From: Henriciella marina DSM 19595
Lineage (GTDB): Bacteria > Pseudomonadota > Alphaproteobacteria > Caulobacterales > Hyphomonadaceae
Direction of reading: 5' to 3'
Assembly (NCBI RefSeq): GCF_000376805.1
Contig: NZ_AQXT01000002.1
Span: 1,612,001 to 1,676,000 of the forward strand
DNA: 64,000 nucleotides
Position numbers and translations under genes: made by a program. The notes beneath the pieces are model-generated. The model did not search any database. It was not told the DNA's origin and was given only the letters and a program-made list of their open reading frames with translations. The stretch's first letter is position 1; every line of letters starts with the position of its first letter. Of this stretch, positions 42,302 to 58,387 are shown one piece after another.

Positions 42302-42402
42302 GGTGTCGGACGACAGGCGGTCAGCATTTGCCAATTATATCCACCACCAAAGATTGAAGTACGTTGCCCTTCGCAACCTTTTCGCAATTCTGCTAGGGAT
42401 AA

Positions 42403-45400
42403 ATGCCCGCTCATCAGAAATCGAAACGAAAGCTACGCATGTTGCCTCCACTTCCCGAATTGAAGCCGAGTCAAATTGGCGAGTTTATTAGATTTCATGC
42501 CTGCGAGCGGAGGGCGAATCTCAGTGTTAGTAGGGCACGAATAAGGGAAGAGTTGCCCTTCTACGGTCGCTTAGAAAACACGCTTGACGTCGTTCTGCGA
42601 GAAAAAGGGGAAATCGCAGAGAACGATTGGCACCAATCACTGATCGAGTCTGGTGCACAACAGGTTCTTGCTGACACCGAAACGCCGTCGCTTGGCGACG
42701 TGCTGGCTTCGTTTTCTGACAAAGCTCAAGACACACTCGCTTTTGCAACCGAAGTTTTGGTGAGCGGACGAGTAGGTGCGTTCGAAGTCAGCGGTCGAAT
42801 GGATTTCGTGTTGTTGTTATGGCGCGATGGGCGGCCAGTGATTCGAGTCGTGGAGGCGAAAGCTTCGCGCAAAGATCAAACATACCAGCGAATTCAAGCC
42901 GCTTGTTATCTGCTCATGACCCAACAAGTTGCTGCTCACACTAACATCAACATAGACGGGCATCAGCTGGATGACCGCTCGGTAGAAGCGGTAGTTGCAC
43001 GAATAGATGAGGAATCGAGAGCACTCCAGAACCCGTTAGAGCTTCAACCTTTAAGTCTGTCAGTACCTAGCGATGATTTAAACCGGCTACTAGCGGCTGG
43101 AGGCGTCTTTGAAAGGTCCGTCAGAGCTGATTTGGACACGTTGCCATACAAGCTTGAGCCGAAGTGCGACGCCTGTGTCTTCAATGTGCATTGTTTTCCT
43201 GAATCTGCTCGCCGTCGAAAGATTCAGCTATTGGGACTTCGAGCCGACCTCATAGCTGCACTTTCCGATCACGGGATACACCAACTCGACGAACTGGCTC
43301 GACTCGATGTCGATTCCGAATTGGCTGCTGCGCTAAGTGCTGATGAGCGAATTGAAGAGGACATTGAAGTACTTAAAGCGCGAGCCGTTGCAAGGGTACA
43401 GACATTGGACTTGGAAGAACCTGTCGAGGGTTGGGAAGTCCAACAACTGCCTCAGCGCGCGACTTCGCTCAGACCCAATCATGAAATTAATGGCCAGAGA
43501 GTAATCCGCGTCTATTTACACGTCGATTACGACTACATCGAAGATCGACTACTAGCTGTAGCTGCTCACGTCACAAATAGTAATGGGCGCTTGGAGGTTG
43601 GTTGGCGACAGGAGGACGGTCGCTACCGTCCAGCTACTGAGGTCGAGGAATCCGTCGGCGACAATCGAAGACCGTTATCCGGCATTGATGTGGTCGAGTT
43701 CAAAAACTCTAACTGGACGCATTCTGTTCAGGACGATGCTGCTTCCGAACGAACAATGCTGGAAAACTTCTACCGGCGTTTAATTGAAGCGATTGCACAA
43801 ACTTCCCAGGCCGACGAAGAATACATCCACTTCTACGTTTGGTCGGAAAATGAAATGCGGCGCTTAATGGAAGCGACAAGCCGAGGTGGCCCAGGTTTGT
43901 TGGCAAACATGTCGCAACTCTTCGGATGTCGCATGGGGCGCGAGCAACTTATTGTAACCCCTCTTCAAACCGACATTCACCGACGCTTCGCGTTTGGCTG
44001 GACAGGACGCGGACTTTCAGTTGCTACATCATTGCGCTGGTTTGGTGGTCGCTATCATTGGACAAGACGCGTGGGTCGGGATCAAATAGACCTATCGAAT
44101 GTATTTCAACAAGACATTTTCGATTTTGCGACCACTCTTTGGACCGAGGATGGAGAGTGGTGTGAAGATGGCGTAGGCGAGCGCCAGCGCTACGAATTAA
44201 GGAGTAGGTTCTTCGACCAAACCAGCGTGGCATATTATCGAGCTTTGTGGGGCGCAATAAACTCCGAAGACGAACACTGGGACGCGCAAGCAAGGAGCGC
44301 TATCCAACGCTACGAACGAGTTGCTCAGGTGCCCGGAATCCTGCCAACGTACCTCACGGCGCGGACCCATGCGCTTCGCTGGGTTGATGAGCGAGCGGGA
44401 TTCTTCAATAACAGAATTGAGAAGACCCCGCTTGATATTCGCCAGCTCGGCAACTTCCGTCTTCGCTCAAACTCCCCTCGTCAAGCTGCGATAGATGTAC
44501 TGCGCATCGATTGGACGATGGCATATATGGAGTGGTTAGTCGCTCAAACTTCAACAGCGAGAGACAGGATTCAAAGCGGACGTTGTCTCCCTTTGGAGGT
44601 TATAGACGTAGGCGATGGAGATCGAGGCAGCAGCATCGTGCGCGCCAGAATTCGTGCAGACTTAGTCAATACCTCCAACGATGTTCTTCAGAGACGCTAC
44701 TCGGATGGCGAGGGGGACCTCGTCCGGATGATGTCCTGGACGGGAAATCCGCAAGATCAAGCGCGAGCCAATCCTGCAGCGTGCTGCTGGATTGAGCATT
44801 TGGACTGGGAAGCGGGAACAATTCAGCTCAGTACGCGACCGGCAAGGCAAGGGCTTTATAGGCAATTCAGCGCGCCAGCGAATGCCTTTGGCGAGTATCC
44901 GTACGTGCTCTTGGAAAAGTCTGTCACCAGCTACACTCATCCAAAAACCGACGAACGTTTGCAGACCAATCAAAATAATCACGTCGACCCATGGTTTGAT
45001 CTGAGCGATCCCAATGTGACTCCCGCTGCGCCGCTGGAACAAGATGTCCGCGATAGACTTCGCGAAGCTTTAACAAGCTGGCGCATTCCCAACACTGACT
45101 TCCAGCTTCTTGAAGAGCAGATACTCGCGGTGTCCGCTAGCCTCGATAGTCGAATTAGCGCACTTCAAGGCCCTCCCGGCACTGGGAAAACCGCAACTAC
45201 CGCGGTGGCAATTGTTTCTAGAATTGCCGCTAGATTGAGTGCTGGAGACCGTGTGATCGTTACTGGGTTTACACACAGAGCAGTAGATACTCTGGTTGAG
45301 CGGACGGCGAATTGGATTGCATCCCTGGTGCAAATTCTAGGGCAGTATGGTTTTGAGCTTCCACCAGTCGAACTGGTGCGTGTTGCGTCTCGTGATCCTC

Positions 45401-46497
45401 AGAACCTACCCGCAAACGTCCAAAACCTGGATTTGGACGATATCCCTAGGGTGGGCGACGCCACTGCATATTTCGCGAACAAAGCCAACTCCGTTACTTT
45501 GCTCTTTGGCACACCGACTCACCTGTTGAAGCTGGAGAAAACGCTGGGCGCAAGGCACAGCCTTTGCGCTAAAGACTTGGTCGTTGATGAAGCGAGTATG
45601 ATGGTATTCCCGGCCATGTTGGCCCTCGCCTCGCTTACATCCTCCGAAGCCTCTGTTTTGGTGGCTGGGGATAATCGTCAATTGGCTCCGATTTTGTCGC
45701 ATCCGTGGGACACCGAAGATCGCCCTCCAACGGTTCGGTATCAACCTTTCTTGAGTGCGTATGAGGTCGTTGCGCGAATAGATGAGACTTACAATCAAGC
45801 CCATCCATCCCGAATATCTGTGTCTCGTCTACGACACACTTTCAGACTGCCTCCCGCTACACGAGAGGTCGTAGGTGTTTTATACCTTAGAGACGACAAT
45901 TTCGCATTATCAGGACGCACTGAGCACCCGGGGCCCATGGGTGCTGTCGCTGACGCGGAGTTCGCACCCGTATGGACCGACCCATTTGGCTTAGTGCTGG
46001 TTAGTCACTCCGAGAGACGATCACGCAAGGAGAACGCCATCGAACGAGCCATTGTTTCGGCTGTAATTGACGCGTCCGAAGGATGCGGCGAGAATAGCAT
46101 CGTGGTTCTCACACCGCACAGGGCACAGCGCGCGTTGTTGCAGCAGGCGCTACAAGATCGCCCAGAAGTGGCGATCGTGGACACAGTCGAGCGTCTTCAA
46201 GGCGGCGAAGCGGCAACTATCATCGTTTCCGCAACCGCAAGCGATCCAGATGCGATAGCCTCAGCGGAACAATTCCTGATGGACGTACACCGGGCGAATG
46301 TTGCTTTTTCACGCAACGAAGATCGATTAATCGTGATTGCGTCTGAGACGTTGCTCGATCACATTTCGGCGAACATTGATGTTTATGAGCATTCGTTATT
46401 GTGGAAAACGCTTCGCACGGCATGCTCAAGTTGCGTTCGAGAAATTGAAATCGACGGTGCCGTCGCCCGGATTCTCACGAAACCTCAGTTGAATTGA
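42403..46497 (+). CDS. Cas4-like nuclease fused to UPF1/DNA2-type SF1 helicase
   Basis: A 1364-aa protein. Residues about 22-275 form a RecB/Cas4-type nuclease: C34, D134 (GRMDF), E151-x-K153 (VVEAKAS), Q165 and Y169, then C255, C258 and C264, a set able to hold a 4Fe-4S cluster. Residues about 370-530 resemble an RNase H-like region of TM0106-type nucleases. The C-terminal SF1B helicase has GPPGTGKT (923-930), DEAS (1062-1065), GDNRQLAP and FSRNEDR (R1304). Such fusions resemble Dna2 and occur in phage-defence loci. An alternative start is 42439. Its stop lies on the left candidate terminal repeat and overlaps the convergent methyltransferase gene by 23 bases. Confidence 0.85.
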   Translation: MPAHQKSKRKLRMLPPLPELKPSQIGEFIRFHACERRANLSVSRARIREELPFYGRLENTLDVVLREKGEIAENDWHQSLIESGAQQVLADTETPSLGDVLASFSDKAQDTLAFATEVLVSGRVGAFEVSGRMDFVLLLWRDGRPVIRVVEAKASRKDQTYQRIQAACYLLMTQQVAAHTNINIDGHQLDDRSVEAVVARIDEESRALQNPLELQPLSLSVPSDDLNRLLAAGGVFERSVRADLDTLPYKLEPKCDACVFNVHCFPESARRRKIQLLGLRADLIAALSDHGIHQLDELARLDVDSELAAALSADERIEEDIEVLKARAVARVQTLDLEEPVEGWEVQQLPQRATSLRPNHEINGQRVIRVYLHVDYDYIEDRLLAVAAHVTNSNGRLEVGWRQEDGRYRPATEVEESVGDNRRPLSGIDVVEFKNSNWTHSVQDDAASERTMLENFYRRLIEAIAQTSQADEEYIHFYVWSENEMRRLMEATSRGGPGLLANMSQLFGCRMGREQLIVTPLQTDIHRRFAFGWTGRGLSVATSLRWFGGRYHWTRRVGRDQIDLSNVFQQDIFDFATTLWTEDGEWCEDGVGERQRYELRSRFFDQTSVAYYRALWGAINSEDEHWDAQARSAIQRYERVAQVPGILPTYLTARTHALRWVDERAGFFNNRIEKTPLDIRQLGNFRLRSNSPRQAAIDVLRIDWTMAYMEWLVAQTSTARDRIQSGRCLPLEVIDVGDGDRGSSIVRARIRADLVNTSNDVLQRRYSDGEGDLVRMMSWTGNPQDQARANPAACCWIEHLDWEAGTIQLSTRPARQGLYRQFSAPANAFGEYPYVLLEKSVTSYTHPKTDERLQTNQNNHVDPWFDLSDPNVTPAAPLEQDVRDRLREALTSWRIPNTDFQLLEEQILAVSASLDSRISALQGPPGTGKTATTAVAIVSRIAARLSAGDRVIVTGFTHRAVDTLVERTANWIASLVQILGQYGFELPPVELVRVASRDPQNLPANVQNLDLDDIPRVGDATAYFANKANSVTLLFGTPTHLLKLEKTLGARHSLCAKDLVVDEASMMVFPAMLALASLTSSEASVLVAGDNRQLAPILSHPWDTEDRPPTVRYQPFLSAYEVVARIDETYNQAHPSRISVSRLRHTFRLPPATREVVGVLYLRDDNFALSGRTEHPGPMGAVADAEFAPVWTDPFGLVLVSHSERRSRKENAIERAIVSAVIDASEGCGENSIVVLTPHRAQRALLQQALQDRPEVAIVDTVERLQGGEAATIIVSATASDPDAIASAEQFLMDVHRANVAFSRNEDRLIVIASETLLDHISANIDVYEHSLLWKTLRTACSSCVREIEIDGAVARILTKPQLN

Positions 46498-47704
46498 GAA
46501 CTCTGTTCTTAGCCCCTGGTCCTTTACCTGGCCCAGGGTGATCAGCGGGAATTGAACAACCACGGTATTTCATTGGCGCGGGTTCTGTCGGATGCGGTTC
46601 GGGGCAGACCCGCTTCGATGGTATTAAACTGCGTTGCCAATCCTCTTTTGGCGAAATTTGCAAACTTTCCAAAATATGAGCACCAACGGCAGACGCTAAG
46701 GCGCAAGGCACTGCGTTTCCGATTTGTGAGGTTGCCACGCGATAATTTCCGGCAAACCGCCAATTGTCCGGAAATGTTTGCAATCTTGCCTGCTCGCGAA
46801 TCGAAAGCCGACGGTTAGACCAATGGAATGGTCCTGTAGTAGGCCCTGGGCTCGCGGAAAGCGTCCATGATGGAAGTGCTTTCGCTAACTTTAGCAAAAA
46901 GGACCAATATCGAGTCCGCCATCCAAATATTGGCTCGCCGTCGCCTCGACTCGTGTGAAATAGATAATTGCTTCCCTCTGGTATCGAGGGCAGCAAATCG
47001 AGCCACTTAGCCGATTGGGAGACCTCTTCCGCTTCTGTGCCGTTGTCCAAATCCCCAATTGCATCCCAGCAATTTAGTACAGGGTAAGTGCATGTATCTG
47101 GCTGCGCGGAGTGCGTATGTATTGGGGGCGCGAGTAACAATCCGTCGCGAAACGCGACGCAGATTATTCGATTTCGAATTTGCGGGACGCCATAGTTAAG
47201 CGCATTTAGTTCCCAAACATTTAGTCGGTAATTGGTTCCTTCCGTCCTGTTTATATGGCCAAGCTTCGCTCTGATCGATCGGATGGCTCCGCTCTTCAAG
47301 GAAGCAAATCCAGGTACATTCTCAATCATGATTACTTGCGGCTTAATTGCCTTTGCAATTTCCAGCATGGCGACCACACTCGAAAACCGTTCGTCGGACC
47401 GACCTTTCCATTTTCCAGTTGACCATTGCGCGGCCTTTGAGAACGGTTGGCAAGGCGGCCCACCTATCAACGCCTCACAATTTTGTGCTCCTGGTATCTC
47501 ACCAAGTACTCGTTCGAAGTTATCTTCTCGGAGCTGCGGCGTTTGACTCAGCACCCAATTTGGCTTGTTCAGCTGCAGAGTCTGGCGTGCCTGTGGATCA
47601 GCTTCGACGGCGCCGATGGTATCAAAACCGGCGAATTCTAAACCAATGTCCAACCCCCCGGCACCTGTAAAGAGTGACAACGCTCTGATAGGACAACCCT
47701 CCAC
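46475..47704 (-). CDS. DNA cytosine-5 methyltransferase (Dcm type)
   Basis: Transfers a methyl group to cytosine C5 in a specific DNA site. Motif I SLFTGAGGLDIGLEFAGF, motif IV GGPPCQPFS with catalytic C85, motif VI MIENVPG, motif VIII VPQIRNRII and motif X SQIGNAVPCALA are all intact. 409 aa. It is 38 bases after cas1 in the same direction, so probably in the cas1 operon. No restriction enzyme is adjacent. The last seven or so codons run beyond the left candidate terminal repeat into flanking DNA, and the stop overlaps the convergent helicase gene. Confidence 0.95.
   Translation of the reverse strand: MEGCPIRALSLFTGAGGLDIGLEFAGFDTIGAVEADPQARQTLQLNKPNWVLSQTPQLREDNFERVLGEIPGAQNCEALIGGPPCQPFSKAAQWSTGKWKGRSDERFSSVVAMLEIAKAIKPQVIMIENVPGFASLKSGAIRSIRAKLGHINRTEGTNYRLNVWELNALNYGVPQIRNRIICVAFRDGLLLAPPIHTHSAQPDTCTYPVLNCWDAIGDLDNGTEAEEVSQSAKWLDLLPSIPEGSNYLFHTSRGDGEPIFGWRTRYWSFLLKLAKALPSWTLSASPGPTTGPFHWSNRRLSIREQARLQTFPDNWRFAGNYRVATSQIGNAVPCALASAVGAHILESLQISPKEDWQRSLIPSKRVCPEPHPTEPAPMKYRGCSIPADHPGPGKGPGAKNRVLNSTEVS
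46497..46507. repeat. Left candidate terminal inverted repeat of the casposon
   Basis: AGAACTCTGTT, the exact reverse complement of 53982-53992. Extending inward, 13 of 14 positions agree (CTT against TTT). It coincides with the helicase stop codon. No matching target-site duplication was found in the flanks by eye. Confidence 0.45.
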
Positions 47705-47742
47705 CGTAGTTTGGCGGAGCTCACCTTGTTCGCGCTAAAGTG

Positions 47743-48888
47743 TCAAGGACGGGCAAAGCAATATTTTGATACATTCAGTTGCTGGACCAACCGCTTTGTG
47801 ACGGTGGGTGAAAGGCGACAAACCCCGTCATTCCTCAACACGAAATCCTTTGGCGAAAACGTGTCTCCAAGCGCAAACTCCAAAACAGCGGCGTCTACTT
47901 TCGGTCTAAGCGGCTCCATCAGATCGAACACGTACGCGTCGGAAGCATCCTTATAGACACGGTGCATGATGCCAAAGCGCGGGTCGTACCCCTCCGCTAG
48001 AATCTTCAATCGGACATCGGCTTCCAACACAGCATAGGCATAATTCAGCATTGCGTTGATCGGATGCGTAGCCCTCCAGTTCTTTGGCTTCTTACCCGTC
48101 AAAACTGATGAACGCTGTTCGAACCTCTCCCAAGTCGGCGGCAAAGGGTGCCGATCTAGCCCCTTCCATTTCAGGCTGAGACCTTCCCAGGCCCGGAAAT
48201 AGAAATAAGCGCATGGTCCTTCGACTGCGTAGAGCTTGTCGATCGATGTTGGCGGATTGGATTTCAGGAGTTGGATGTTCTCACTCAAAACCTGATCGGC
48301 TTTCTCAAATGCCCTTTGCTCCTTCAAGAGCTTTCGAAGGGTCTGCCTGGACGCGATCAGCTTCTTTCGAATGAGGTTCACTGAGAACTTTACCCGTGCC
48401 CGTTCATCATTCGCTTGCTCTATTTGCCATTTCACCTTGAGCGGATCGGTTGGCATCCCGTTGTCAGCGAATGTGGACGCCGATTTTCCATCCCATCTCA
48501 CGCGAATTAGCGGGAGCTTCTGCTCTCGAAGCCAATCCAGAACGGCAAGCGACAGGCTGCCTGAGCCATCAATTAGAATAATGCGCGGCGGCAAATCCAG
48601 ACTGCCTCGAAAGAAGCGATACTCGTCACGCTTCTTTCGAGGCAGTCTGGATTTGCCGCCGCGCATGACCAAAGTGCCGTTTTCGATGCGAAGCGAGATG
48701 TTGTGCCCGCTAAGAATGAGCGGGTTTGCGCGCCTCGATCGCTTCAGTCTTTTCGGCTCAGCCGCGCGGGATTTAGACGCCCAGTATTCCGCTCGGATAG
48801 CCCACTCGTCAGTTTCAGCAACGTTGTTGTCCTGCTTTGAATCAAAAGCCAATTTCACCCTCTCATTTGAGCTAACAATATAACTCAC
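47743..48888 (-). CDS. cas1: Cas1-family integrase (casposase candidate)
   Basis: A 381-aa Cas1 homologue. The N-terminal beta domain has LILSGHNISLRIENGTLVMR and RIILIDGSGSLSLAVLDWL; the catalytic domain has AVEGPCAYFYFRAW (E223), HPINAMLNYAYAVLEADV, GYDPRFGIMHR (H309) and FDLMEPLRPKVD (D322, E325), so the metal-binding set looks complete. It has no Cas2 partner and overlaps the upstream HTH gene by 4 bases. Codons 75-103 contain a perfect 38-bp inverted repeat, yet the frame is intact and both halves read as normal family sequence. Association with PolB makes a transposon integrase more likely than a solo CRISPR remnant. Confidence 0.9.
   Translation of the reverse strand: MSYIVSSNERVKLAFDSKQDNNVAETDEWAIRAEYWASKSRAAEPKRLKRSRRANPLILSGHNISLRIENGTLVMRGGKSRLPRKKRDEYRFFRGSLDLPPRIILIDGSGSLSLAVLDWLREQKLPLIRVRWDGKSASTFADNGMPTDPLKVKWQIEQANDERARVKFSVNLIRKKLIASRQTLRKLLKEQRAFEKADQVLSENIQLLKSNPPTSIDKLYAVEGPCAYFYFRAWEGLSLKWKGLDRHPLPPTWERFEQRSSVLTGKKPKNWRATHPINAMLNYAYAVLEADVRLKILAEGYDPRFGIMHRVYKDASDAYVFDLMEPLRPKVDAAVLEFALGDTFSPKDFVLRNDGVCRLSPTVTKRLVQQLNVSKYCFARP
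48581..48666. repeat. Perfect 38-bp inverted repeat with 10-bp spacer inside cas1
   Basis: Left arm 48581-48618 and right arm 48629-48666 are exact reverse complements; the spacer is 48619-48628 (ATACTCGTCA). The arms begin ATGCGCGGCGGCAAATCC and end GGATTTGCCGCCGCGCAT. In the protein they encode MRGGKSRLPRKKR (75-87) and RFFRGSLDLPPRI (91-103), joined by Asp-Glu-Tyr. A transcript would fold into a very strong hairpin 220 bases after the start codon. Confidence 0.97.
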
Positions 48889-49985
48889 ATGCAGGCTTCA
48901 TTCCTGATTCTTTTTAGAAATTTTAGAAATTTATTGTCGTCTTTGAGAGCCGTTTTCAGAGCCTTTCTTGTGATCAGTTTTTCCAGGTTTGGAGTCGATC
49001 GCACGACTTGTTGCAGCTCTTGGCTAAGAAGGTTTACACGCCGAGCTTCATCATGAATTTCTGACAGCTCAACTCCGTCCAAAGTGTCGATCTTATCACT
49101 TTCTTTCAGAGCTAGCCAAAGCAACAACACCGAAGCTTGCATCTCAATCGACGCTTTCCAGCGAAACCAATTAGCAGCTTTGAGCCCGAAAGCGTTTCTT
49201 CCAAATATCCACTCGAAAGCGTCATGAAGTTCAGTCGCCACTTCGAGGCCGAAGACAAAATCCCGCTTGGCTTCCTCCAGCAAGCGAATGCGATTGCCCA
49301 CAAATAGAGATGTATCGATTTTGATCTCTGGTGCGATCGCCAGACTGCGAATGAGCTGATCCAGCACCGGACCGAATTCTAGGCTTTGCCCCGTGACTTT
49401 ATCCGAACGCGCGCTTGCGGCACCAATCGCTGTTTGAAAGTCCTTCAGGCGTTTGCGCTCGTCCGCTTCTTCGTCCGCGCACTCCAATGTTCCTGAAACC
49501 GCTTGCGCGAGCATCACAATTACGGCTGCTTTGTCCGCATCGTTCATTCTTTGGGTGTTAGCGGATACGAGCTTTGGGAATTTGTTATTCGAAGCGCGCT
49601 CAATCACGCGCTGATCGAACCTATCAAGTATTTCTTCGTCATCAGACCTAAGCAAGCGCGCAATGCGGCGGAGTGCCTTGAATGTCTCTCTACCGACGCT
49701 CTCCAGGACCGGCTTCCAGTACTGTTCGCCAACATCGAAGCCCTGCAGCCAAAGATGCCAGCCGATAAAGTCGGCGCGTTTCTTCCTCAGAGACAATGCG
49801 TACGCAGTCTTAGCCTGGTCAATGCTGGACGCCGGATGTCGAGCAGAACCACCGCGCTCTGCGGATGGCAGCAAGTTTTTCTCTCGCCAACTGCGCAGCG
49901 TCGAAGGGGGTACTTCGACGCCTGAGGCGCGGAGTTCAGCGATCAACTGCTCGCCGGAAATGAACTCTGTTCCTGTAACGGTCAT
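48885..49985 (-). CDS. MerR-like HTH protein of the casposon
   Basis: A 366-aa protein whose N-terminal 50 residues form a winged HTH of MerR design: ISGEQLIAELRASGVEVPPSTLRSWREKNLLPSA. The large helical remainder (about 70-366) has no recognised domain and a Lys-rich C-terminus. It overlaps cas1 by 4 bases and is the first gene of the leftward operon, so it may be a site-specific DNA-binding partner of Cas1 or the operon regulator. No enzymatic motif was seen. Confidence 0.75.
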   Translation of the reverse strand: MTVTGTEFISGEQLIAELRASGVEVPPSTLRSWREKNLLPSAERGGSARHPASSIDQAKTAYALSLRKKRADFIGWHLWLQGFDVGEQYWKPVLESVGRETFKALRRIARLLRSDDEEILDRFDQRVIERASNNKFPKLVSANTQRMNDADKAAVIVMLAQAVSGTLECADEEADERKRLKDFQTAIGAASARSDKVTGQSLEFGPVLDQLIRSLAIAPEIKIDTSLFVGNRIRLLEEAKRDFVFGLEVATELHDAFEWIFGRNAFGLKAANWFRWKASIEMQASVLLLWLALKESDKIDTLDGVELSEIHDEARRVNLLSQELQQVVRSTPNLEKLITRKALKTALKDDNKFLKFLKRIRNEACM

Positions 49986-50076
49986 GGGCTATTCGACTAC
50001 CTGATGCGCCGGAAACAGGCGATTTAGCAGAATCCGACTTTGATTTTTGGGCCTCCTCCAAAACGAGGAAGCCAAA
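49986..50076. promoter_or_regulatory. Divergent control region of the casposon
   Basis: 91 bases between the leftward HTH-cas1-methyltransferase operon and the rightward HTH-HNH-polB operon. A small inverted motif, CGCC-GGAAACA-GGCG, is at about 50008-50022. The right end carries a hairpin over the ribosome site (50050-50073). Both operons must be driven from here or inside the adjoining genes. Confidence 0.5.
50050..50073 (+). promoter_or_regulatory. Hairpin occluding the ribosome site of the rightward HTH gene
   Basis: GGCCTCCTC (50050-50058) pairs with GAGGAAGCC (50065-50073) with one mismatch around CAAAAC. The right arm contains the Shine-Dalgarno GAGGAA, six bases before the ATG at 50077. 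Folding would hide it and lower translation of the operon. Confidence 0.5.
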
Positions 50077-50568
50077 ATGAACCAACAACTAAGCAAGCCC
50101 CGCACCACACGGGCCGAACTTCAACGGCAAGCGACAGAACGGGCTCGCGCAGCATTCCAGGCTGTCGAACAAGGCGCATCAATCCGGCAGGCGGCAAAGG
50201 AACATCATGTAGGTCGCGAAAGACTAAGCGCCTTCATTCGAGACCATGCCGAAGTCGATTGGAAGCCTGGGACCAAGCTTGTCATCACGAGCAACAGGCT
50301 CGTGAAGGAAGCGCGCATCTTCAGTAAAGGGCGAATGCGGACTGTCATGCTCTATCCCGAAGAACTGAGCCGCGCGATGAAATTCATGAGCGCGGTTGGA
50401 CGCTTTCTAAACACGAATGATCCGCTCCAGCTGAAAGGCTTTCAAGGAAAGTCCGTAACCGATGTTTCAGGCAAGCGGCACCCGCTCGAAACTAGCCCGA
50501 ATCGTCTCTATGAAATTTCGGCTGCGAACGATCTCGACGTCATTCCACTCTACAAGGATGTGGTCTGA
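50077..50568 (+). CDS. HTH DNA-binding protein of the casposon
   Basis: A 163-aa protein with an N-terminal helix-turn-helix of the resolvase/Psq type, GASIRQAAKEHHVGRERLSAF, followed by a compact domain (KLVITSNRLVKEARIFSKGR) of unknown fold. The ATG at 50077 has GAGGAA six bases upstream. Its stop overlaps the HNH gene start (TGATG), so they are translationally coupled. It may bind the element ends or regulate the divergent promoters. Confidence 0.75.
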   Translation: MNQQLSKPRTTRAELQRQATERARAAFQAVEQGASIRQAAKEHHVGRERLSAFIRDHAEVDWKPGTKLVITSNRLVKEARIFSKGRMRTVMLYPEELSRAMKFMSAVGRFLNTNDPLQLKGFQGKSVTDVSGKRHPLETSPNRLYEISAANDLDVIPLYKDVV

Positions 50569-50966
50569 TGTTTTGGGAGAAGCAGAACAAGAGGTGGCGC
50601 TACTTCGCGCAGCTTGAGCAAAGGGAGCTTGCGCGTCGTCATCCCGATGATCGCGCGTGCAGATTTTGCGGGCGCTGGTATCCGCGAGAAGAGTGGCATC
50701 ATTTCGGGCGCGCGGCCTCAAACGATGAAACCATACCGATTTGTGTTACGTGCCACGATTATTTTCGACGGGTCGAACTCCTGCAGGCTGCAATAGAGGG
50801 TGACCCTCGCCATCCGCTAGTTGCAATTGCCAGACGCTTGCACGGCGTAGCGGATATGCGGGAACTGTTCGCAGTCCAAGACCGGGAATTGGGCGACCTA
50901 GTTTTTAAGCTGGCTGAAATGCACCCTCAGCTAGTAATGCCGGATATGGAAGATGATGCGGACTAA
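50568..50966 (+). CDS. HNH endonuclease of the casposon
   Basis: A 132-aa protein with a zinc-stabilised beta-beta-alpha-metal fold: C31-x2-C34 (ACRFCGRWY), EEWHHFGRAA with H44 and H45, then ETIPICVTCHDYFRRVE with C59, C62 and H63. The paired Cys and His-His are the usual HNH/McrA pattern. HNH nucleases are frequent in casposons, where their role is unclear. It is followed by polB after 3 bases. Confidence 0.85.
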   Translation: MFWEKQNKRWRYFAQLEQRELARRHPDDRACRFCGRWYPREEWHHFGRAASNDETIPICVTCHDYFRRVELLQAAIEGDPRHPLVAIARRLHGVADMRELFAVQDRELGDLVFKLAEMHPQLVMPDMEDDAD

Positions 50967-50969
50967 GGC

Positions 50970-53900
50970 GTGCAGAACGAAGGCGAAGACGCTCCATTCG
51001 AGCCAAGGGAAATTCAGTTGCGCGCTTACACCAGGCGCGAACCCCATAAGGCACCTAAAGCCCGCGACTCGGTAAAGAAGCAGCCTTCCGCTCGAACGCT
51101 GATCTTCGATACTGAAACGATCGGTGTCTCTCAGCGCCTCCGCATTGGAAGCTATCAACTCCGCGATGATAATGAGCTGTTCGAAGAGGGGCTGTTCTAT
51201 GATCCAGCCGCGCTTTTCGCTTCTGAAACTGAGCTTCTGCAGAGCTATGCGAGAGACCGGGGGCTAGTCCTTCGAACTGATCGCGACTTTGTTGAAGAGG
51301 TGTTCTTCGAAGAGTGCCATGAACTTCACGGCACCTGCGTGGGCTTCAATCTTCCGTTCGATTTGTCTCGGTTGGCGTTGGCGCATGGCACCGCCAAAGG
51401 AGGCAAGCGTAATGAACTTTTTCAGAAAGCCTTTTCGCTTCAGCTCAGTGAGAATGAAAAGCGACCAAGATTGAAGGTGAAGCACCTGTCAAGTCGATCG
51501 GCCTTCATGGAATTCGCGATGGTCAGCGACCCAAACCGGCGGTCTGACAAAAAGCGCGGACGGAAGGTCGAGCATCACAAAGGGTTCTTTGTTGATGTCA
51601 AAACGCTCGCCGGCGTTCTGCTCGCCGCTAATCACTCCCTGCGCAGTCTCGCAAAGGCACTCGGTCTCGACATTGAAAAAGGCGAGGTCGAGGACTTTGA
51701 AGCGCCGCTGACAACAGAATTTCTCGATTACACAGTGCAAGATGTGCGCGTGACCTGGAAGTGCTACCGCGAACTGATCGGCCGTCTAAGCGAGCACGGG
51801 CTTCCAAACGCCCCAGCCTATTCGCTGACAAGCGAAGCTTCTCTTGGAAAATCCTATCTAAGAGCAATGGGTTTGAAGCCCTGGATGGTATCGCAGCCAG
51901 ATTTTCCACCGGAAATGATCGGGATCATTCTAAGCACCTACTACGGCGGTCGTTCCGAAGTGCATATTCGCCGCGAGGTTTGCGAAGCCTTCTATTGCGA
52001 CTTCCTCTCCATGTACCCAACCGTCAACACGGTGATGGGGCTGTGGCAGTTCGCAACGGCTGAGGGCATCAACTACCAAGATGCGACTGAGAGTGTCCGA
52101 GACATTCTGGAAACCTGGACGCTCGGAGACCTTCAAAAGCCCGAGAACTGGCCAAAGCTGACAGCCATCGTCCAGGTCATGCCGGATGACGATATCTTTC
52201 CAATCCGGGCGATCTATGGCGACGCCGCCCCGCGACACGAGAAGAATAAAGTCGCGAACATCGGCCTAAATCGGCTGACGTGTGAAGCGCCGCTTTGGTT
52301 CACGCTGGCGGATTGTCTCGCCTCCAAGCTCTTGAATGGCAAGCCGCCAAAAGTGGTGAAGGCATACAACTTCACGCCAATGGCTCAGCAATCAGGGCTC
52401 AGAGTGATCAATCTTGCAGGCGATCCTGAGACGCGGATTGATCCGGCTAAGGATGATTTCTTTCGCGAGGTCATCACGCGCCGGAAGAAGATTGCTGGTT
52501 TGAAGAAAGCAGCTAAATCCGAACGTGATCGTGAGCACTTCGATGGGTTGCAGCTTGCTCTCAAAATTCTCGCCAATGCGACAAGCTACGGCATCTTCGT
52601 CGAGTTGAACGTTCACGATGCTTATACCGAAACCGAAGAGGGAAAGCGCAACACACCAAAGGCGAAGCTCGCCCGCTACGGCTATGACGGGACACGCCAA
52701 GAGATTATCTCAAAGGTCGAAGAAACGCCTGGAGAGTTTTTTCATCCTCTGCTCGCAACTCTAATTACGGGCGCGGCCAGATTGATGCTCGCGCTTTCGG
52801 AAAGAGCGGCCGCAGATCAGGGCTTGGATTGGATATTCTGCGACACGGACGGCATCGCGTTCGCAAAGCCTGATGAGATGTCGAGCAAAACCTTTCAAGA
52901 CCGGATCGATGCCGTTCGCGGCTGGTTCGAACCGCTTAACCCATATGCCTTTGAAGGTTCAATCCTCCAGGCGGAAGATGAGAACTTCAGTCGCGAGAAA
53001 GATGCTGCGGGAAACAAACAGCGCCTACCTCTCTTCGCCTACGCTGTGTCCGCGAAACGCTATGCTTTATTCAACAAGAATGCGGACGGGTCGATCGATC
53101 TTCGAAAGACATCCGCTCATGGACTTGGATTGTACGTGCTGCCATACGAAGCGCCGCCTGAAAGCGGCTGGAAGAAAAACTCGAAATCAGAGTTTTGGCA
53201 CGAACAAGTTTGGGAGCGCATCTGCCTTGCCGCGCTCAATGGCGAAGATGACAAGCTGAACTTCGTTGGCATTGAAGGTTTCAATAAGCCTGCAGCTAGC
53301 CGATACGCGGCAACAAAGCCGAACCTGCTAGAGTGGTTCGCAGACTATAATCAGGCGCGCGATTATCCGGATCAGATACGACCATTCACGTTCATGCTGT
53401 CGTTTCAGCTGGATGAGATGGAGTTCATCAAAGCTCGCAATGCAGGGGATGCCGAAGCGTTGGCTTTCGCAAGCGATCCAAGACCTGCCTCGCCGTATGA
53501 GACAGATGTTGTTCGAGCGGCAACGCGCGCATTCGATCGAACGACGGGACAATCCGTGCGGCATGAATGGCTACGCACGTACGAGAGCACCTTAGCGGGC
53601 TATCATTTGCGCGACGAAGCGAAGTTCCTGGGAGGCGTGAAGACCCAGCGCGGGGCGCTGAAGCGCCGTCATATTGATGCGTTTGCAATCCAGCAAGTCG
53701 GGAAGGAAGCGCATGATTGGGAAGAAATCATCAGTCTGGGCGAGACAAATCAGCCGTCAAGACAGGTCGCTGAAGTGCTTAATTGGGATAAATGCCGCGC
53801 CTTGATCGCCCGTGCCCAAGAGCTCCATGGAGTTCGAAATCTCAGATATGCGGCGGGCGTCGGCGACGCCAAGATAAGATCGATTTTGCGCTACAGAAAT

Positions 53901-53978
53901 TCTGTCGAACCTGACGTCTTGCGCAGGCTAGTTCGTGCCGTATACGTTTTGGGAGACCCAGCGGTGTCCCGTATTTAA
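50970..53978 (+). CDS. polB: Family B DNA polymerase (casposon PolB)
   Basis: A 1002-aa polymerase with a GTG start. Proofreading exonuclease: LIFDTET with D47 and E49 (Exo I), GFNLPFD with N127 and D131 (Exo II), YTVQD with Y254 and D258 (Exo III). Polymerase: FYCDFLSMYPT (motif A, D344), LKILANATSYG (motif B, K532 to G541) and WIFCDTDG (motif C, D625 and D627). All metal ligands are present, so it should be active. The C-terminal 250 residues are additional. This type is found in casposons and other mobile elements, not as a housekeeping enzyme in this lineage. Protein priming cannot be judged from motifs alone. Confidence 0.93.
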   Translation: MQNEGEDAPFEPREIQLRAYTRREPHKAPKARDSVKKQPSARTLIFDTETIGVSQRLRIGSYQLRDDNELFEEGLFYDPAALFASETELLQSYARDRGLVLRTDRDFVEEVFFEECHELHGTCVGFNLPFDLSRLALAHGTAKGGKRNELFQKAFSLQLSENEKRPRLKVKHLSSRSAFMEFAMVSDPNRRSDKKRGRKVEHHKGFFVDVKTLAGVLLAANHSLRSLAKALGLDIEKGEVEDFEAPLTTEFLDYTVQDVRVTWKCYRELIGRLSEHGLPNAPAYSLTSEASLGKSYLRAMGLKPWMVSQPDFPPEMIGIILSTYYGGRSEVHIRREVCEAFYCDFLSMYPTVNTVMGLWQFATAEGINYQDATESVRDILETWTLGDLQKPENWPKLTAIVQVMPDDDIFPIRAIYGDAAPRHEKNKVANIGLNRLTCEAPLWFTLADCLASKLLNGKPPKVVKAYNFTPMAQQSGLRVINLAGDPETRIDPAKDDFFREVITRRKKIAGLKKAAKSERDREHFDGLQLALKILANATSYGIFVELNVHDAYTETEEGKRNTPKAKLARYGYDGTRQEIISKVEETPGEFFHPLLATLITGAARLMLALSERAAADQGLDWIFCDTDGIAFAKPDEMSSKTFQDRIDAVRGWFEPLNPYAFEGSILQAEDENFSREKDAAGNKQRLPLFAYAVSAKRYALFNKNADGSIDLRKTSAHGLGLYVLPYEAPPESGWKKNSKSEFWHEQVWERICLAALNGEDDKLNFVGIEGFNKPAASRYAATKPNLLEWFADYNQARDYPDQIRPFTFMLSFQLDEMEFIKARNAGDAEALAFASDPRPASPYETDVVRAATRAFDRTTGQSVRHEWLRTYESTLAGYHLRDEAKFLGGVKTQRGALKRRHIDAFAIQQVGKEAHDWEEIISLGETNQPSRQVAEVLNWDKCRALIARAQELHGVRNLRYAAGVGDAKIRSILRYRNSVEPDVLRRLVRAVYVLGDPAVSRI

Positions 53979-54193
53979 AAAAACAGAGTTCTAATAATCG
54001 ACTATGGAGATGTCTCTGAAAGAGCAGCGAACTGTCCAAACGCAAGGACTTCCCATTGCTACACGTCTCTCTTCAACGGCTGCCAAGTTTTTAGGCGCAG
54101 CAACTCATTCGGCTGATTCGTTAGCCTGCACTTGACAGATATCGTGGTAGTTCGCATCGTATCCAAACCAACTCATGGTGGAGGGCGCAACTG
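53979..54193. other. Right casposon junction and lanthipeptide leader region
   Basis: Carries the right candidate inverted repeat (53982-53992), then 200 bases with no convincing gene and the promoter region of the precursor peptide. A frame of about 40 codons to the right of the repeat is open but shows no family resemblance. The flank does not repeat the sequence left of 46497. Confidence 0.5.
53982..53992. repeat. Right candidate terminal inverted repeat of the casposon
   Basis: AACAGAGTTCT, immediately after the polB stop (53978) and a run of A residues. It is the exact reverse complement of 46497-46507. Confidence 0.45.
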
Positions 54194-54427
54194 ATGGCAA
54201 ACAATAGTTCTGATATCACCAAGGCAGCAGCTGATGTAGAAGCAGCATCGCAAACGATAGTTCAAGCAGCCAGAAAGCTGATTGAAGCTGGCAAAACGAT
54301 TGATCTAAATTCAACTGATTTGGAACAGGATCTAATACTCAAGCTTCATAAGAAAGTATCGGAGGCGAAAGACCTCACTGCCCAACTAGACTATATCGAA
54401 CCTTCTAGCTCCAGTTGCAGCTGCTAG
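54194..54427 (+). CDS. Lanthipeptide precursor candidate
   Basis: A 77-aa peptide with a helical, acidic leader (about 1-70, including STDLEQDLILKLHKKVSEAK) and a C-terminal core SSSSCSC at 71-77. It precedes a LanKC synthetase by 157 bases. Ser residues would be phosphorylated and eliminated to dehydroalanine and the Cys thiols added to form lanthionine or labionin rings. Five residues of the seven are Ser and two Cys, so the core is unusually compact. A GGAGG ribosome site lies upstream. Function of the product is unknown. Confidence 0.72.
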   Translation: MANNSSDITKAAADVEAASQTIVQAARKLIEAGKTIDLNSTDLEQDLILKLHKKVSEAKDLTAQLDYIEPSSSSCSC

Positions 54428-54584
54428 AACTTAATAAGTATAAATTAGCTTTGGGGCGACGACAGCTCCGAACTCTGATTGGGATTTGAAAGACGATCAA
54501 TCACGGAAGATGTGAATTTTTTTCAAAATTCTCTACCCGATAAAGTGCCGACTTAGCACCCTATAGTGGGGCAATAAAAGCCTT

Positions 54585-57146
54585 ATGAATATAGAGCGAA
54601 AGAATGGTTTGATCCCAATTCCATTCTTGTTCGCGAGTCCGCGCTATTACGCTACGTTTGGCGATTACAATCCTAAAAACGATTACTTTGCTACGCTAAT
54701 CGATCAAATACCTTCGGATTGGCTGTGCAGAAGAAGTGGCGCTTGGTGGAACTTCGCGCCGCTCAATAACAACCTCCCTGATTCGGGATTCAAAATTCAT
54801 GTGTCCTCAAACCTAGAATCTGCGCCGGATGTACTCACCCAAGTATCTAGAATGGCATTTAGTTGCGGGGTGCCATTCAAGTTTATTGTGGACCAAAAAC
54901 TCCATGAATTCTCGAACTCTAAAAATTATAGCTCTTGGAGTTGCGGGAAATTCATCACCATATACCCTGCCAGCACCCGTGAATTCTCAGTTCTGATCGA
55001 CTGGTTAAGGACTGCCTTAAGAGACGCAGGGGGGCCATACATTTTCTCCGATAAGCACGCCCCTGGATCATCGGCTGTGTTCTACCGTTTTGGAGCATTT
55101 TCTCCTCACTCACGTGTCAACGTATTCGGCGAGTACGAGAGGTTAGTATCCATTGGCGAACAGCAAATGGCGGATCAGACGATGCCGGTTTTCTATCTGC
55201 CGCCAAACATTATCGATCCGGTGCGCGGAAGTCACAGCAACACGGGCGACACCGGTAAATCCAATGAAGAGTTGATCCTGCGTGACAGATTCGCTGTTAC
55301 GGGTACATTGCACCGATCGAATTCAGGGGCGGTTCTGCTTGCGCGCGATAACGTGACGGGCGAAGTGGTAGTTCTGAAGGAAGCACGTCGCGGAATTATT
55401 GCTTCAGGTTTCGATGCGACATATCTTCTCGCGAGAGAGTACTCGGTTCTTGAGCTATTGCGACACACTGGTGTCACGCCGCTGCCCATCGATTTCTTCA
55501 AGGTACACGATAGCTATTTCATTGCTATGCAGCATATCAACGGCGTTCCGCTGTCAAAATTTAGAACGTCGCCCGTTATTACTGCTCTACATAAAATCTC
55601 TCCGTCCGAAGCAGAAATTCGCGACGCGGAAGAGACAGTACGTAAAATCTATAACAATTTGTCGAACGCGGTGCGCTTAATCCACCAAAAAGGTATAGTC
55701 GTAGGAGATATCGCGCCGCAAAATGTGATGATCACGCCAGAATCATTGAGCGTGAAAATATTGGATTTTGAAGCCGCAGCTCATGTCGAAGAAGAACTCG
55801 ACCTTCGAATTAACACTATTGGGTTTCGGAGCTCAAATACGTCCAAGTCATTCGCAGAGGATCAGACTGCCGTCAGAAAAGTCGCAGCCTCGACGCTGCT
55901 CCCAGTTCAAACCGGCTCAGAACTAAATCCATACATAACCTCGAATTTCATACGAAGACTTACGAGCGATTATCCTGCTTTTTGCGATCTCGGCAGTGAA
56001 TTAGAACCTGGATTTGAGTTTTCAGAAAGTGTGTGCGACCTGCAATCTCGGCGTTCTATTTTGAAGGAACTAGTCCGGGGTTTGAAAGAAAGCGTAGGAT
56101 TTGCGGCTTCTGGCCACCTTTGGGCTTGCGACTACAGAGGAGTGAAAACGAATCCTCTTTCGATTGCTTTTGGTGCGCTAGGAGTTGCTCCGCTACTTCG
56201 TCTTGTTGAGGGGGAGGTTCCAAGCGTTGTTCAGGACTGGATAACCGAGGCGCTGCAAGTGGACCGCGATTATGCTCCCGGGCTGTGGGTTGGCAGCGCT
56301 GGCATATCTTGGGGATTAGCTGAGCTGGGCCGAACTGAAGAAGCAGAGCTGTGGTTTGATCGAGCAATCGAAAGCAAACTTAAATTTGAGAAGCTCGATA
56401 TTTTTTTCGGAGCGGCGGGCATCGGCGTGACCGCTCTCCGTCTATTTCATGTGTTAAAGTGTGAGAAATACCTAGAGCAGGCAATCGACATTGCAGATCA
56501 AATGCTGCAGCTGCGTATTGGAAATCTAGGCACAAAATATTGTTCTTGGAAGCTAGAGAATAATGGCTTCGGTCATGGTCATGCAGGCATAGCATACTTT
56601 TTTTTGGCTTTGTACAAATCGACTGGCGACTACTCGTATTTAGAATTCGCTGAGGCATCCTTTCGAACGGAAGTTATGAGAGGGTATATCACCCCAGAAG
56701 GCGCTTTATGTTGGCTTGCTGGAGACCACGACAAGCGCGGAATGCCTTACTTTCGAATTGGGGGTGCTGGTGTAGGAGCGGTGGCCTGCCGCCTATTCGA
56801 AACTACTGATTCAAAATTCTACCGAGATGCCTGCAAGAGCATTGCTCTGGGCTGCAGTATAAAATACGCAGCGGGCTCTGGCCTACTTACGGGGCTAACT
56901 GGCATCGGCGAGTTCTTCCTCGATATGCAAAAGACATTTCCAGACGACGATTATCAGTCTCAATTGAAGGACATAGCAAAAGGAATCGACATGTTCCTAT
57001 TTGAATCTGAGTTTGGATTGTGTGCGCCATCCGAGTCGCTAACAAGGATGAGTTTTGACTATGGAACTGGTTCAGCTGGTATTGCCTATTTTTTTCACAG
57101 GCTTCAAAACCGCAAAGCTCAGAGACGATTGTTCGAATTCGATTGA
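54585..57146 (+). CDS. Class III lanthipeptide synthetase (LanKC)
   Basis: An 853-aa three-domain enzyme. Residues about 1-225 are the lyase-like domain; about 235-500 a Ser/Thr kinase domain with K265, GDIAPQN (D375 to N380) and DFE (394-396, in place of DFG); about 520-853 a LanC-like cyclase with GFGHGHAGIAYF. The Cys-His zinc pair expected in class I/II/IV cyclases is missing: the equivalent site reads GLLTGLTG. This fits class III. It is the most AT-rich large gene in the window and has no transporter or leader protease gene next to it. Confidence 0.88.
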   Translation: MNIERKNGLIPIPFLFASPRYYATFGDYNPKNDYFATLIDQIPSDWLCRRSGAWWNFAPLNNNLPDSGFKIHVSSNLESAPDVLTQVSRMAFSCGVPFKFIVDQKLHEFSNSKNYSSWSCGKFITIYPASTREFSVLIDWLRTALRDAGGPYIFSDKHAPGSSAVFYRFGAFSPHSRVNVFGEYERLVSIGEQQMADQTMPVFYLPPNIIDPVRGSHSNTGDTGKSNEELILRDRFAVTGTLHRSNSGAVLLARDNVTGEVVVLKEARRGIIASGFDATYLLAREYSVLELLRHTGVTPLPIDFFKVHDSYFIAMQHINGVPLSKFRTSPVITALHKISPSEAEIRDAEETVRKIYNNLSNAVRLIHQKGIVVGDIAPQNVMITPESLSVKILDFEAAAHVEEELDLRINTIGFRSSNTSKSFAEDQTAVRKVAASTLLPVQTGSELNPYITSNFIRRLTSDYPAFCDLGSELEPGFEFSESVCDLQSRRSILKELVRGLKESVGFAASGHLWACDYRGVKTNPLSIAFGALGVAPLLRLVEGEVPSVVQDWITEALQVDRDYAPGLWVGSAGISWGLAELGRTEEAELWFDRAIESKLKFEKLDIFFGAAGIGVTALRLFHVLKCEKYLEQAIDIADQMLQLRIGNLGTKYCSWKLENNGFGHGHAGIAYFFLALYKSTGDYSYLEFAEASFRTEVMRGYITPEGALCWLAGDHDKRGMPYFRIGGAGVGAVACRLFETTDSKFYRDACKSIALGCSIKYAAGSGLLTGLTGIGEFFLDMQKTFPDDDYQSQLKDIAKGIDMFLFESEFGLCAPSESLTRMSFDYGTGSAGIAYFFHRLQNRKAQRRLFEFD

Positions 57147-57208
57147 ACAGAAATCTCGCGAGCTACGCAGAACACCTCAGTTTCGTGCTAACAAGACAGT
57201 CTTGTGCG

Positions 57209-58387
57209 TCATCTAAGGTAGCCGACTTCATTTGCCACAATGTTGTAAATAGCCTTTGCGGTATGTTCTCTGCTTGCATCCCATTCACGACCAAAACTAC
57301 GTGCCAGTGTCGCAACGGTATGGTGAACATCTCGCTGATTTAGTACGTCCGGCACGATCCAACTCGCCAACCCATCTTGATCGATATCCGCAAGAATGGA
57401 TTGAAATGCCTCAATTGCCGCATTTTCGAACCAAGTGCTTGGGCATTCGGTCGGAATTGTACTTTTCACTACTTCAATGATGCGCGAAAGGGATGGAGCA
57501 AACATCAGGAGGCCAGCGGCAATACGTGCTCGATCCGTATTGAGGAGAGCTCGCGCCGTACGCAGAAGTGAACGCCTACTTTGGGGGGGACTCAAATTAC
57601 TCAGCGGATACGGCAAAGCTGATCGAATAGCTTTAGATGCTCTCTCGCCAAATTTTTCACTAAACTCGGAGTATATGGACCAGACCTGCCACACCTCCAG
57701 ATCTTCTAGCGCTTCAGTAAATACGCGTTCAATTTCAGCCCAGGGACGGAGGGCAACAAGGCTGCGAAAGGCTCGAAGTTGACCGTCGTTTGTAAAGCCA
57801 CGGCCAGAGAAGAACACCGCCCTGTCTGCACTTGGGTCCGGACAGACAAACTGATGGTTGAGGTCAGAATCCATTATAGTTCTTAGGACGATTGTTACTG
57901 ACGGAAATCCCCAATGATAAAGGCCGTGAACGAAATCTAAACCTGGAACAATTTGATGGGTGTCACCGGGCTCAAGAATCGATAGATCGCTTAACCGTAT
58001 TTTTCCGACGGCGAGATTCGACCATGCTTGGCGCTCATTCTCCACTTCATAAACGGCATGAACACTCCCACCAGTTAGAACGCGGAATGCTCCAGAGAAC
58101 CCATGGCTATGTATGTCAGGAGAACTTGAGCCCCATACAAGAACTTCGAGTCTGAAATCGTCTGTCTGAAAGACATTGAAGTTAAGATCACCGAAGTGCG
58201 AATAATTTCCATTCCGGATTGAGAGGCGTTCTATTTCGTCCCACCTGAATTTTGGAATTCTGGCATTGGACAAAAAGGCGTGCGCAGCGTTGGAAAATAT
58301 TGTGTCTCTTGAAACCGACTTCCATAGACCGTCGAATTCCTGCCCTAAAGATACCAGTGAATTGAGCAGCATGATTTCGATGTCCAA
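57209..58387 (-). CDS. Cupin-fold protein beside the lanthipeptide genes
   Basis: A 392-aa protein with a cupin resembling cysteine dioxygenase-type enzymes: SSPDIHSHGFSGAFRVLTGG with H93 and H95, then LEPGDTHQIVPGLDFVHGLY with H144 and H154. These can hold an iron. The C-terminal 200 residues are helical and unassigned. Converging on LanKC with 62 bases between. It could modify the peptide, but that is an inference from position. An alternative start is Met6 at 58372. Confidence 0.65.
   Translation of the reverse strand: MDIEIMLLNSLVSLGQEFDGLWKSVSRDTIFSNAAHAFLSNARIPKFRWDEIERLSIRNGNYSHFGDLNFNVFQTDDFRLEVLVWGSSSPDIHSHGFSGAFRVLTGGSVHAVYEVENERQAWSNLAVGKIRLSDLSILEPGDTHQIVPGLDFVHGLYHWGFPSVTIVLRTIMDSDLNHQFVCPDPSADRAVFFSGRGFTNDGQLRAFRSLVALRPWAEIERVFTEALEDLEVWQVWSIYSEFSEKFGERASKAIRSALPYPLSNLSPPQSRRSLLRTARALLNTDRARIAAGLLMFAPSLSRIIEVVKSTIPTECPSTWFENAAIEAFQSILADIDQDGLASWIVPDVLNQRDVHHTVATLARSFGREWDASREHTAKAIYNIVANEVGYLR

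Follow-up and report, generated by a model that had tools for sequence, protein, structure and literature searches.

How does a mobile element that encodes a Cas1 protein come to lie where it lies? This question is raised by a locus of Henriciella marina DSM 19595 in a 64,000-nt stretch of contig NZ_AQXT01000002.1 (positions 1,612,001 to 1,676,000 of the forward strand). The whole stretch is termed the window, and positions are counted from its first nucleotide. The original prediction, made from the sequence letters, placed a casposon at 46497-53992, with genes for Cas1, a family B DNA polymerase (PolB), an HNH nuclease, helix-turn-helix (HTH) proteins and a methyltransferase. The genes are present at these places, and the core genes, terminal inverted repeats (TIRs), a target site duplication (TSD) and two empty sites uphold the assignment; the limits however were drawn too tightly. 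Cas1 appears (probability about 0.85) to have joined element ends that start with GGGG to a palindrome-centred, hairpin-forming target of 14-16 bp, and to have duplicated the palindrome on both sides. The ends, the duplication and the empty sites are seen directly, and most members of the same Cas1 clade are likewise inserted at the centre of palindromes, the arms of which covary. The features that define the element are:

42285..58502, no strand: whole casposon, 16,218 bp (14-bp reading of the TSD), delimited by its TIRs and TSD and by the empty sites of two sister genomes
42271..42284, plus strand: left TSD, TCCCGGATGCGGGA, a palindrome identical to 58503-58516 (42270-42285 in the 16-bp reading)
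42285..42301, plus strand: left TIR, GGGGATAAGGGAAAGCA; a near-identical TIR is found in the nearest relative, L044
58486..58502, minus strand: right TIR, the complement of GGGGATAAGGGAAAGCA, paired with the left TIR
58503..58516, plus strand: right TSD, TCCCGGATGCGGGA, matching the left TSD

The duplicated target is the palindrome (C)TCCCGGATGCGGGA(G), situated within a repeat that resembles repetitive extragenic palindromes (REPs). Its length can be read as 14 or 16 bp, an ambiguity that stems from the palindromic nature of the target and from the G with which the TIR begins. Inverted repeats enclose positions 42265-58522 of the window. A first reading took these as a 37-bp TIR, in which case the palindrome that flanks the element would belong to the element itself and not to the target. 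Casposon TIRs have been described as at least 25 nt long, some of them with internal palindromes (PMC4046053; here and below, statements from cited papers hold for the parts of the texts that were consulted), which is compatible with such a reading. The empty sites decide otherwise. Two sister genomes, G005 and G016, have no element at the same spot and carry an intact CCCCTCTCCCGGAYGCGGGAGAGGGG; in G016 the complete palindrome, CCCCTCTCCCGGATGCGGGAGAGGGG, is present once. The outer half of the inverted repeat is thus target and the 37-bp TIR is ruled out. A comparison of relatives gives the same division, with target in the outer part and element end in the inner part, and related elements that share TIRs differ in their palindromes. 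A palindrome that belongs to the element is therefore refuted for the window casposon and is very improbable as a general account.

In the window and in both sister genomes the gene beside the insertion spot presumably encodes a dihydroorotase-like protein. In G016 the empty site can be folded into a hairpin whose stem is 11 bp and whose loop is 4 nt long (z = -3.48). The original prediction had proposed a comparison with strains that lack the element, and the unbroken palindromes of G005 and G016 provide it; the insertion history of the casposon is read directly from these empty sites. From the ends, the duplication and the empty sites it follows that the element is 16.2 kb long, and it therefore takes in a helicase-nuclease gene on the left and a RamC/LanC-kinase gene on the right. 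Paired TIRs, a duplication of 14 or 16 bp and empty sites are all as found in a casposon.

The window does not contain a tRNA gene. Thus the tRNA 3′ end, the archaeal type of target, is rejected here in favor of the REP-like palindrome. Allowing up to 2 mismatches, the repeat pattern hits the genome at 14 distinct positions, and four of these are the flanks of two casposons; the reversed pattern, used as a control, gives 0. The second casposon (L003) is 16.6 kb long and its Cas1 is 41% identical to that of the window. It has the TIR GGGGTATAGTGATGT; its duplication, CTCCCGAATCCGGGAG, is a separate copy from the same repeat family and differs in the loop. The empty site of L003 is present in G016. 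The targets of both casposons lie between open reading frames (ORFs).

In the genus Henriciella, 8 of 29 genomes searched, the window genome included, give a Cas1 match. One of these matches is a fragment (G002) and another adjoins a CRISPR array (G017). The other five elements have GGGGTATAG-type TIRs and all are inserted in palindromes, that of G021 being imperfect (5/7). One of the five (G010) is in the repeat type of the window and four are in other repeats. Three casposons of different Henriciella genomes (the L003 flank, G010:C123 and G023:C10) are found at the same spot with different duplications, which has the look of a hot spot; the gene at the L003 side of this spot is presumably gyrB-like.

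The proteins that may carry out the insertion are encoded by a five-gene core. Recurrence is given as the number of loci with homologues among 63 loci of the survey described below.

47743..48888, minus strand: Cas1 casposase, 381 aa (PF01867, 2.6e-32), with E223, H309 and D322/E325 kept
48885..49985, minus strand: MerR-like HTH protein, 366 aa, with a weak MerR match (0.0042); homologues in 19/63 loci
50047..50568, plus strand: small HTH protein, 173 aa, start possibly internal, with weak transposase-HTH matches; homologues in 44/63 loci
50568..50966, plus strand: HNH-type nuclease, 132 aa, assigned by its Cys/His pattern; homologues in 43/63 loci
50970..53978, plus strand: family B DNA polymerase, 1002 aa, assigned by fold match; homologues in 46/63 loci

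The original prediction described the Cas1 as intact. In an alignment of 16 sequences E223, H309 and D322 are invariant and E325 is nearly so. The best PDB match is 6opm, with an E-value of 6.4e-20 for the single sequence and 1.2e-49 for the 16-sequence profile (next match, 4.6e-30). This structure, labelled 'Cas1' in the structure table, we take to be the M. mazei casposase. The absence of Cas2 was also correctly called, and it extends to the whole window genome, which has no match to the Cas2 family PF09827 and two PF01867 genes. The reported overlap of the MerR-like gene with cas1 is 4 bp; the model of the MerR-like protein is poor (mean predicted local distance difference test score, pLDDT, 68.1) and has no structure match at E 0.001 or better. 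In the HNH-type protein C31, C34, H45, C59, C62 and H63 are conserved in an alignment of 12 sequences, and no library gives a confident HNH name (PHROGs E-values, 0.048 and 0.089). PolB is marginal in Pfam (0.0026); its AlphaFold model (pLDDT 82.5), though, matches phi29 and other family B polymerases with a best E-value of 1.7e-12, and a family B polymerase, as predicted, is indicated.

A CRISPR-derived Cas1 and a polymerase might also be neighbors by chance in a defence island, since the protein does match the Cas1 family and some of the cargo is defence-like. Such a coincidence is scarcely credible. The genome has no Cas2, the Cas1 is split from CRISPR Cas1 at 92/95 in the tree described below, the HTH, HNH and PolB genes each recur in 43-46 of 63 loci, and the paired TIRs, the TSD and the empty sites refute it. 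A stand-alone Cas1 with intact catalytic residues and no Cas2, a PolB, and HNH and HTH proteins recognised by conserved pattern, weak HTH matches and recurrence are the features of a family 3 casposon.

One scan of 84,980 genomes with seven Cas1 sequences yielded 138 candidate stretches. A Cas1 relative is encoded by 101 of these, not all of which are casposons, and 80 loci were kept. Casposons are accordingly no longer very rare in bacteria, as had been thought in the original prediction. The end scan covered 61 of the 80 loci, leaving aside two on short contigs (L083, L084) and 17 weak matches (L107-L123); CRISPR arrays are present at 11 of 15 weak-match loci tested. With the two elements of the window genome this makes 63, of which 24 have paired ends and 39 do not.

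The palindrome score of a site is the count of stem positions, out of seven on either side of the duplication's centre, at which the bases are complementary; of five centres within 1 bp the best was taken. In a first test on the 24 paired elements, two out-of-clade elements included, the mean score is 6.17 and 21 of 24 score at least 5; random windows reach 5/7 in 1709 of 20000 cases, and the half-swap control gives 0/5000. The set was then restricted to the Cas1 clade by removal of the two out-of-clade elements, with addition of L079 and of L198, L200 and L201 (completed from L058, L091 and L074). Among these 26 two-ended elements 24 score at least 5 of 7 and 18 score 7 (half-swap control, 0/5000). 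The count is 23/25 without L091/L200, which is absent from the tree because its Cas1 is in two ORFs. The palindromes vary in sequence (the stems range from CTCCC/GGGAG to CCTGC/GCAGG, CGCCC/GGGCG and CCAGT/ACTGG), the arms covary and the pair types vary at most stem positions.

Twenty single ends chosen by TIR likeness were scored over six positions, and 11 score at least 5 of 6 (control, 824/20000). By position in the tree, 7 of 10 in-clade ends pass and none of three outside (L078, L080, L081); of seven ends not in the tree four pass (two ends of L082, L091 and L093) and L085, L086 and L087 fail. L058, L074 and L091 are in this set and, once completed, also among the 26.

The covariation bears on an alternative, namely that a degenerate motif (CC...GG or a REP-family sequence) is what the integrase or an HTH partner recognises, the palindrome being incidental and the motif supplied by REPs and terminators. 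A left C with a right G is indeed more frequent than any other pair at stem positions d 2 to 9, half-swapped sites keep about 4.6 of 7 pairs, and the casposase of A. boonei, which needs a leader motif, is impaired by changes at C+1 and C+2 of the leader-TSD border (PMC6614799). The diversity of the stems and the fact that a site's own arms match each other far better than they match the arms of other sites (0/5000) tell against it, and a degenerate motif as the whole explanation is possible but doubtful.

The position of the palindrome bears on another. When the centre is scanned over ±12 bp, the best centre of 23 of 26 elements falls no more than 1 bp from the midpoint of the duplication; the mean score, 5.77 at the midpoint, does not exceed 2.73 at the listed offsets from 1.5 bp upward. 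Out-of-clade elements behave differently: none of six reaches a score of 5 (L076, L096 and four more Nitrosomonas elements that score 2 to 4). The tree gives the position of L076, L096 and the elements of L095 and L097, and two elements of G034 (L104) are assigned by TIR alone; one of the latter has its two ends on different contigs. If insertion were near random and elements persisted only in intergenic spacers, which are rich in terminators and REPs, palindromes could be found beside many of them. Both targets in the window genome are between ORFs, and archaeal casposons with described sites likewise keep genes unbroken (PMC4046053). Survival however does not demand that palindrome and duplication share a centre, nor does it account for the six elements without such centring; this explanation is improbable. 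By a strict T-tract rule 3 of 22 in-clade sites would count as terminators, a low count because the stems often extend into A/T tracts, and by eye about six sites resemble bidirectional terminators (L045, L048, L049, L052, L053, L069). What can be claimed for the in-clade targets in general is a hairpin and not a terminator.

In a Cas1 tree of 69 rows, 47 rows (own1, own2 and scanned loci) are split from the CRISPR Cas1 rows with a support of 92/95; the window Cas1 is on the side of bacterial casposon Cas1, and the grouping with CRISPR Cas1 that the original prediction had named as refuting it is not seen. All 21 labelled palindrome inserters are in a 36-row, mostly alphaproteobacterial clade (89/85), together with L056, L079 and 13 unlabelled rows. 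Whether these 36 rows form a clade depends on the root. The palindrome label requires 3 changes on the tree as compared with 14.9 for shuffled labels (0/500 as low).

These data are best explained by a casposase that, alone or with its HTH and HNH partners, would recognise a two-fold symmetric, hairpin-forming target and duplicate it. Cas1 would be the integrase at work. The casposase complex, which is a two-fold tetramer in the M. mazei relative, may read dyad symmetry or an extruded hairpin instead of a fixed sequence. PolB would copy the element, with the HNH and HTH proteins assisting, and a landing in hairpins between genes would spare the host. Since the core of the hairpin is within the duplicated 14 bp, each junction keeps a shortened version of it. 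Fifteen sites have 7 or more contiguous pairs; their junctions retain 5 to 8 pairs (in one case 11), almost all of them supplied by the 14 duplicated bp. For this reason a rebuilding of the stem by the GGGG of the TIR was dropped as an idea.

Several points weigh against recognition of a symmetric target. The pattern tells where the elements sit and not how the site is recognised. Two in-clade two-ended elements are not palindromic, L056 (score 4) and L079 (score 2), and three of the ten in-clade one-ended loci miss (L047, L065 and L068, the last counted as a miss because its centre falls outside the preset range). The score that half-swapped sites retain is still high, and a CC...GG sequence preference contributes because left C and right G dominate. 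Seven of the 24 paired elements are from the genus of the window, and lineages are thus unevenly sampled. The junctions formed by insertion fold only modestly better than shuffled sequences (z = -2.29 and -1.69). Finally, in the tree the M. mazei casposase, represented by the aligned part of 6opm on a long branch, did not join the palindrome clade and was placed, tentatively, with the A. fulgidus Cas1 (83/80).

Archaeal casposons (A. boonei, M. mazei and others) resemble the window element in the Cas1 integrase, PolB and duplications of ~14-15 bp (PMC4046053, PMC6977970, PMC6614799), and those of family 2 share the HNH and HTH genes (PMC4046053). The sites described in 2014 are five tRNA 3′ ends and three aEF-2 genes, with ten casposons, archaeal or bacterial, in intergenic positions (PMC4046053). 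The M. mazei casposase forms a pseudo two-fold tetramer. Its duplications are 14 bp long, and it can use a symmetrised 14-bp target but also requires a CGCA motif and upstream tRNA sequence (PMC6977970). The need for such sequences, or for the leader motif in A. boonei (PMC6614799), distinguishes the archaeal enzymes studied from what is seen here.

Transposases of REP-targeting insertion sequences are not known to be related to Cas1. These insertion sequences, like the window casposon, enter repetitive extragenic palindromes (PMC1525189); the difference is that here one clade uses palindromes of unrelated sequence.

The machinery of CRISPR adaptation has been proposed to derive from casposons, and Cas1-Cas2 spacer integration duplicates an often palindromic repeat on either side of the inserted DNA. 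The window element shares with it the Cas1 chemistry and an often palindromic repeat doubled around inserted DNA (PMC6614799), and differs in that the insert is a 16-kb element with its own TIRs, without Cas2 or an array, and that the duplication is 14-16 bp. The best-studied archaeal targets, tRNA 3′ ends, leave the frequent palindromy of CRISPR repeats unexplained. A Cas1 clade whose elements lie at the centre of palindromes that are doubled around them makes the step to a CRISPR repeat directly testable with purified proteins, and may offer a structure-guided integrase that lands between genes. A bolder proposal is that what the whole bacterial casposase clade recognises is the shape of the DNA, namely a hairpin or cruciform with hardly any restriction on its sequence, and that repeated insertion at one hairpin gives strings of hairpin-DNA-hairpin (as at the G041 junction, L046 and L082), which would be living models of the origin of the palindromic CRISPR repeat from a casposon target site. 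This proposal is tentative and somewhat less likely to be right than wrong.

Some junctions have unusual structures. In L082 (1991-2145) a hairpin and a 46-bp casposon end together make up a 66-bp unit that is present twice in tandem (the copies are 86% alike), and a third hairpin follows. This string at a casposon end is CRISPR-like on a small scale and suggests repeated use of one site, or a tandem duplication, which explains it equally well. In L202 (G041:C2, 10100-10140) and L046 (3815-3850) two casposon ends point apart across a single palindrome of ~15 bp; these strings suggest that one target was used repeatedly in series. A second core gene set was not found in the stretch examined around the L202 and L046 junctions. 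In L101 (Nitrosomonas sp. ACE_PRO54, 2180-2288) the right end of a casposon directly adjoins, to the base, the start of a CRISPR-like repeat of 29 bp, GTGTTCCCCACATCCGTGGGGATGAACCG, one of two repeats separated by a 32-bp spacer, and the junction is where Cas1-Cas2 would add a spacer; the other casposon end is absent from the assembly.

The window element is itself very probably known or nearly so. HenMar-C1 is a family 3 casposon of Henriciella marina DSM 19595, and its listed genes include a Cas4-like nuclease/superfamily 1 (SF1) helicase fusion, a C5 methyltransferase, a Ser/Thr kinase and a Cas1 without extra domains (PMC4046053). The cargo of the window element is:

42403..46497, plus strand: N-terminal PD-(D/E)XK (Cas4-like) nuclease fused to an SF1 helicase, 1364 aa (PF12705, 9.6e-06; PF13086/PF13087; PADLOC Cas4, 7.1e-05)
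46475..47704, minus strand: C5 cytosine DNA methyltransferase, 409 aa (PF00145, 4.3e-49)
54194..54427, plus strand: small ORF, 77 aa, a possible lanthipeptide-type precursor, no convincing family match
54585..57146, plus strand: RamC/LanC-like protein with a Ser/Thr kinase domain, 853 aa (PF25816, 2.6e-40; PF05147, 1.5e-21; PF00069, 3.9e-14)
57209..58387, minus strand: protein of unknown family, 392 aa, without a Pfam match at 0.01

The nuclease/helicase fusion, the methyltransferase and the kinase are thus all present, and in Cas1 without extra domains, PolB, HNH, HTH and the three cargo types the two descriptions agree (PMC4046053). The sister genomes are Henriciella, H. pelagia LA220 among them, and the cargo agrees with the published list; the window element is therefore very probably HenMar-C1 or an allele of it. 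The original prediction had pointed to a casposon reported from Henriciella marina; the named sister genomes support the genus and the cargo supports the element. The palindromic target is not mentioned in that prediction. The HenMar-C1 text names no palindromic target in the parts of PMC4046053 consulted, and the window genome has a second casposon. The 2014 paper may have counted the palindromic target as TIR. The palindrome-centred mode of insertion is new as far as titles and abstracts show: at the level of titles and abstract beginnings no report of palindromic targeting by casposons, or of a casposon with CRISPR-Cas9 cargo, was found.

At 54194-57146 the small ORF adjoins the RamC/LanC-kinase gene. 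Its position and its Ser/Cys-rich tail make a lanthipeptide-type precursor possible, and the pair may be a casposon-borne pathway of this type.

Other bacterial casposons carry anti-phage defence genes, in one case a whole CRISPR-Cas9 system. Nine large cargo ORFs, selected by size with one per element, were compared with PADLOC models. Six match at 1e-10 or better (PD-Lambda-4, PDC-M60A, type I restriction, Aga/Avs2, type IIG restriction and Lamassu LmuB), and those of L049, L064 and L073 have no PADLOC match at this level. A gene pair in L003 matches Pfam models of the TPR-GreAB-C-PIN system, one above the cut-off and two under it, and presumably has a defence role. Restriction, Lamassu, PD-Lambda-4, Avs-like and TPR-GreAB-C-PIN-like genes are thus seen in the cargo of L045, L048, L054, L059, L060, L077 and L003.

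The casposon of L198 (5553-18826 of DHQO01000001.1, Hyphomonadaceae bacterium UBA5336) encloses a complete type II CRISPR-Cas system. The TIRs, which are paired and have an identical palindromic duplication at both ends, enclose genes for Cas9 (6e-174), a type II Cas1 (2.6e-67) and Cas2 (8.8e-17) as well as an array with 17 or more 66-bp units, all on a single metagenome-assembled contig. One element thus carries both a casposase and a CRISPR Cas1.

In L003 (4533-7260) and in G023 (L035, 5165-7970) PolB consists of two overlapping ORFs that are split between the exonuclease and polymerase parts. The split is at the same place in two genomes, and this may therefore be a real two-part polymerase. 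The second contig of the window genome, G000:C1, is only 3,776 bp long and is perhaps a small plasmid.

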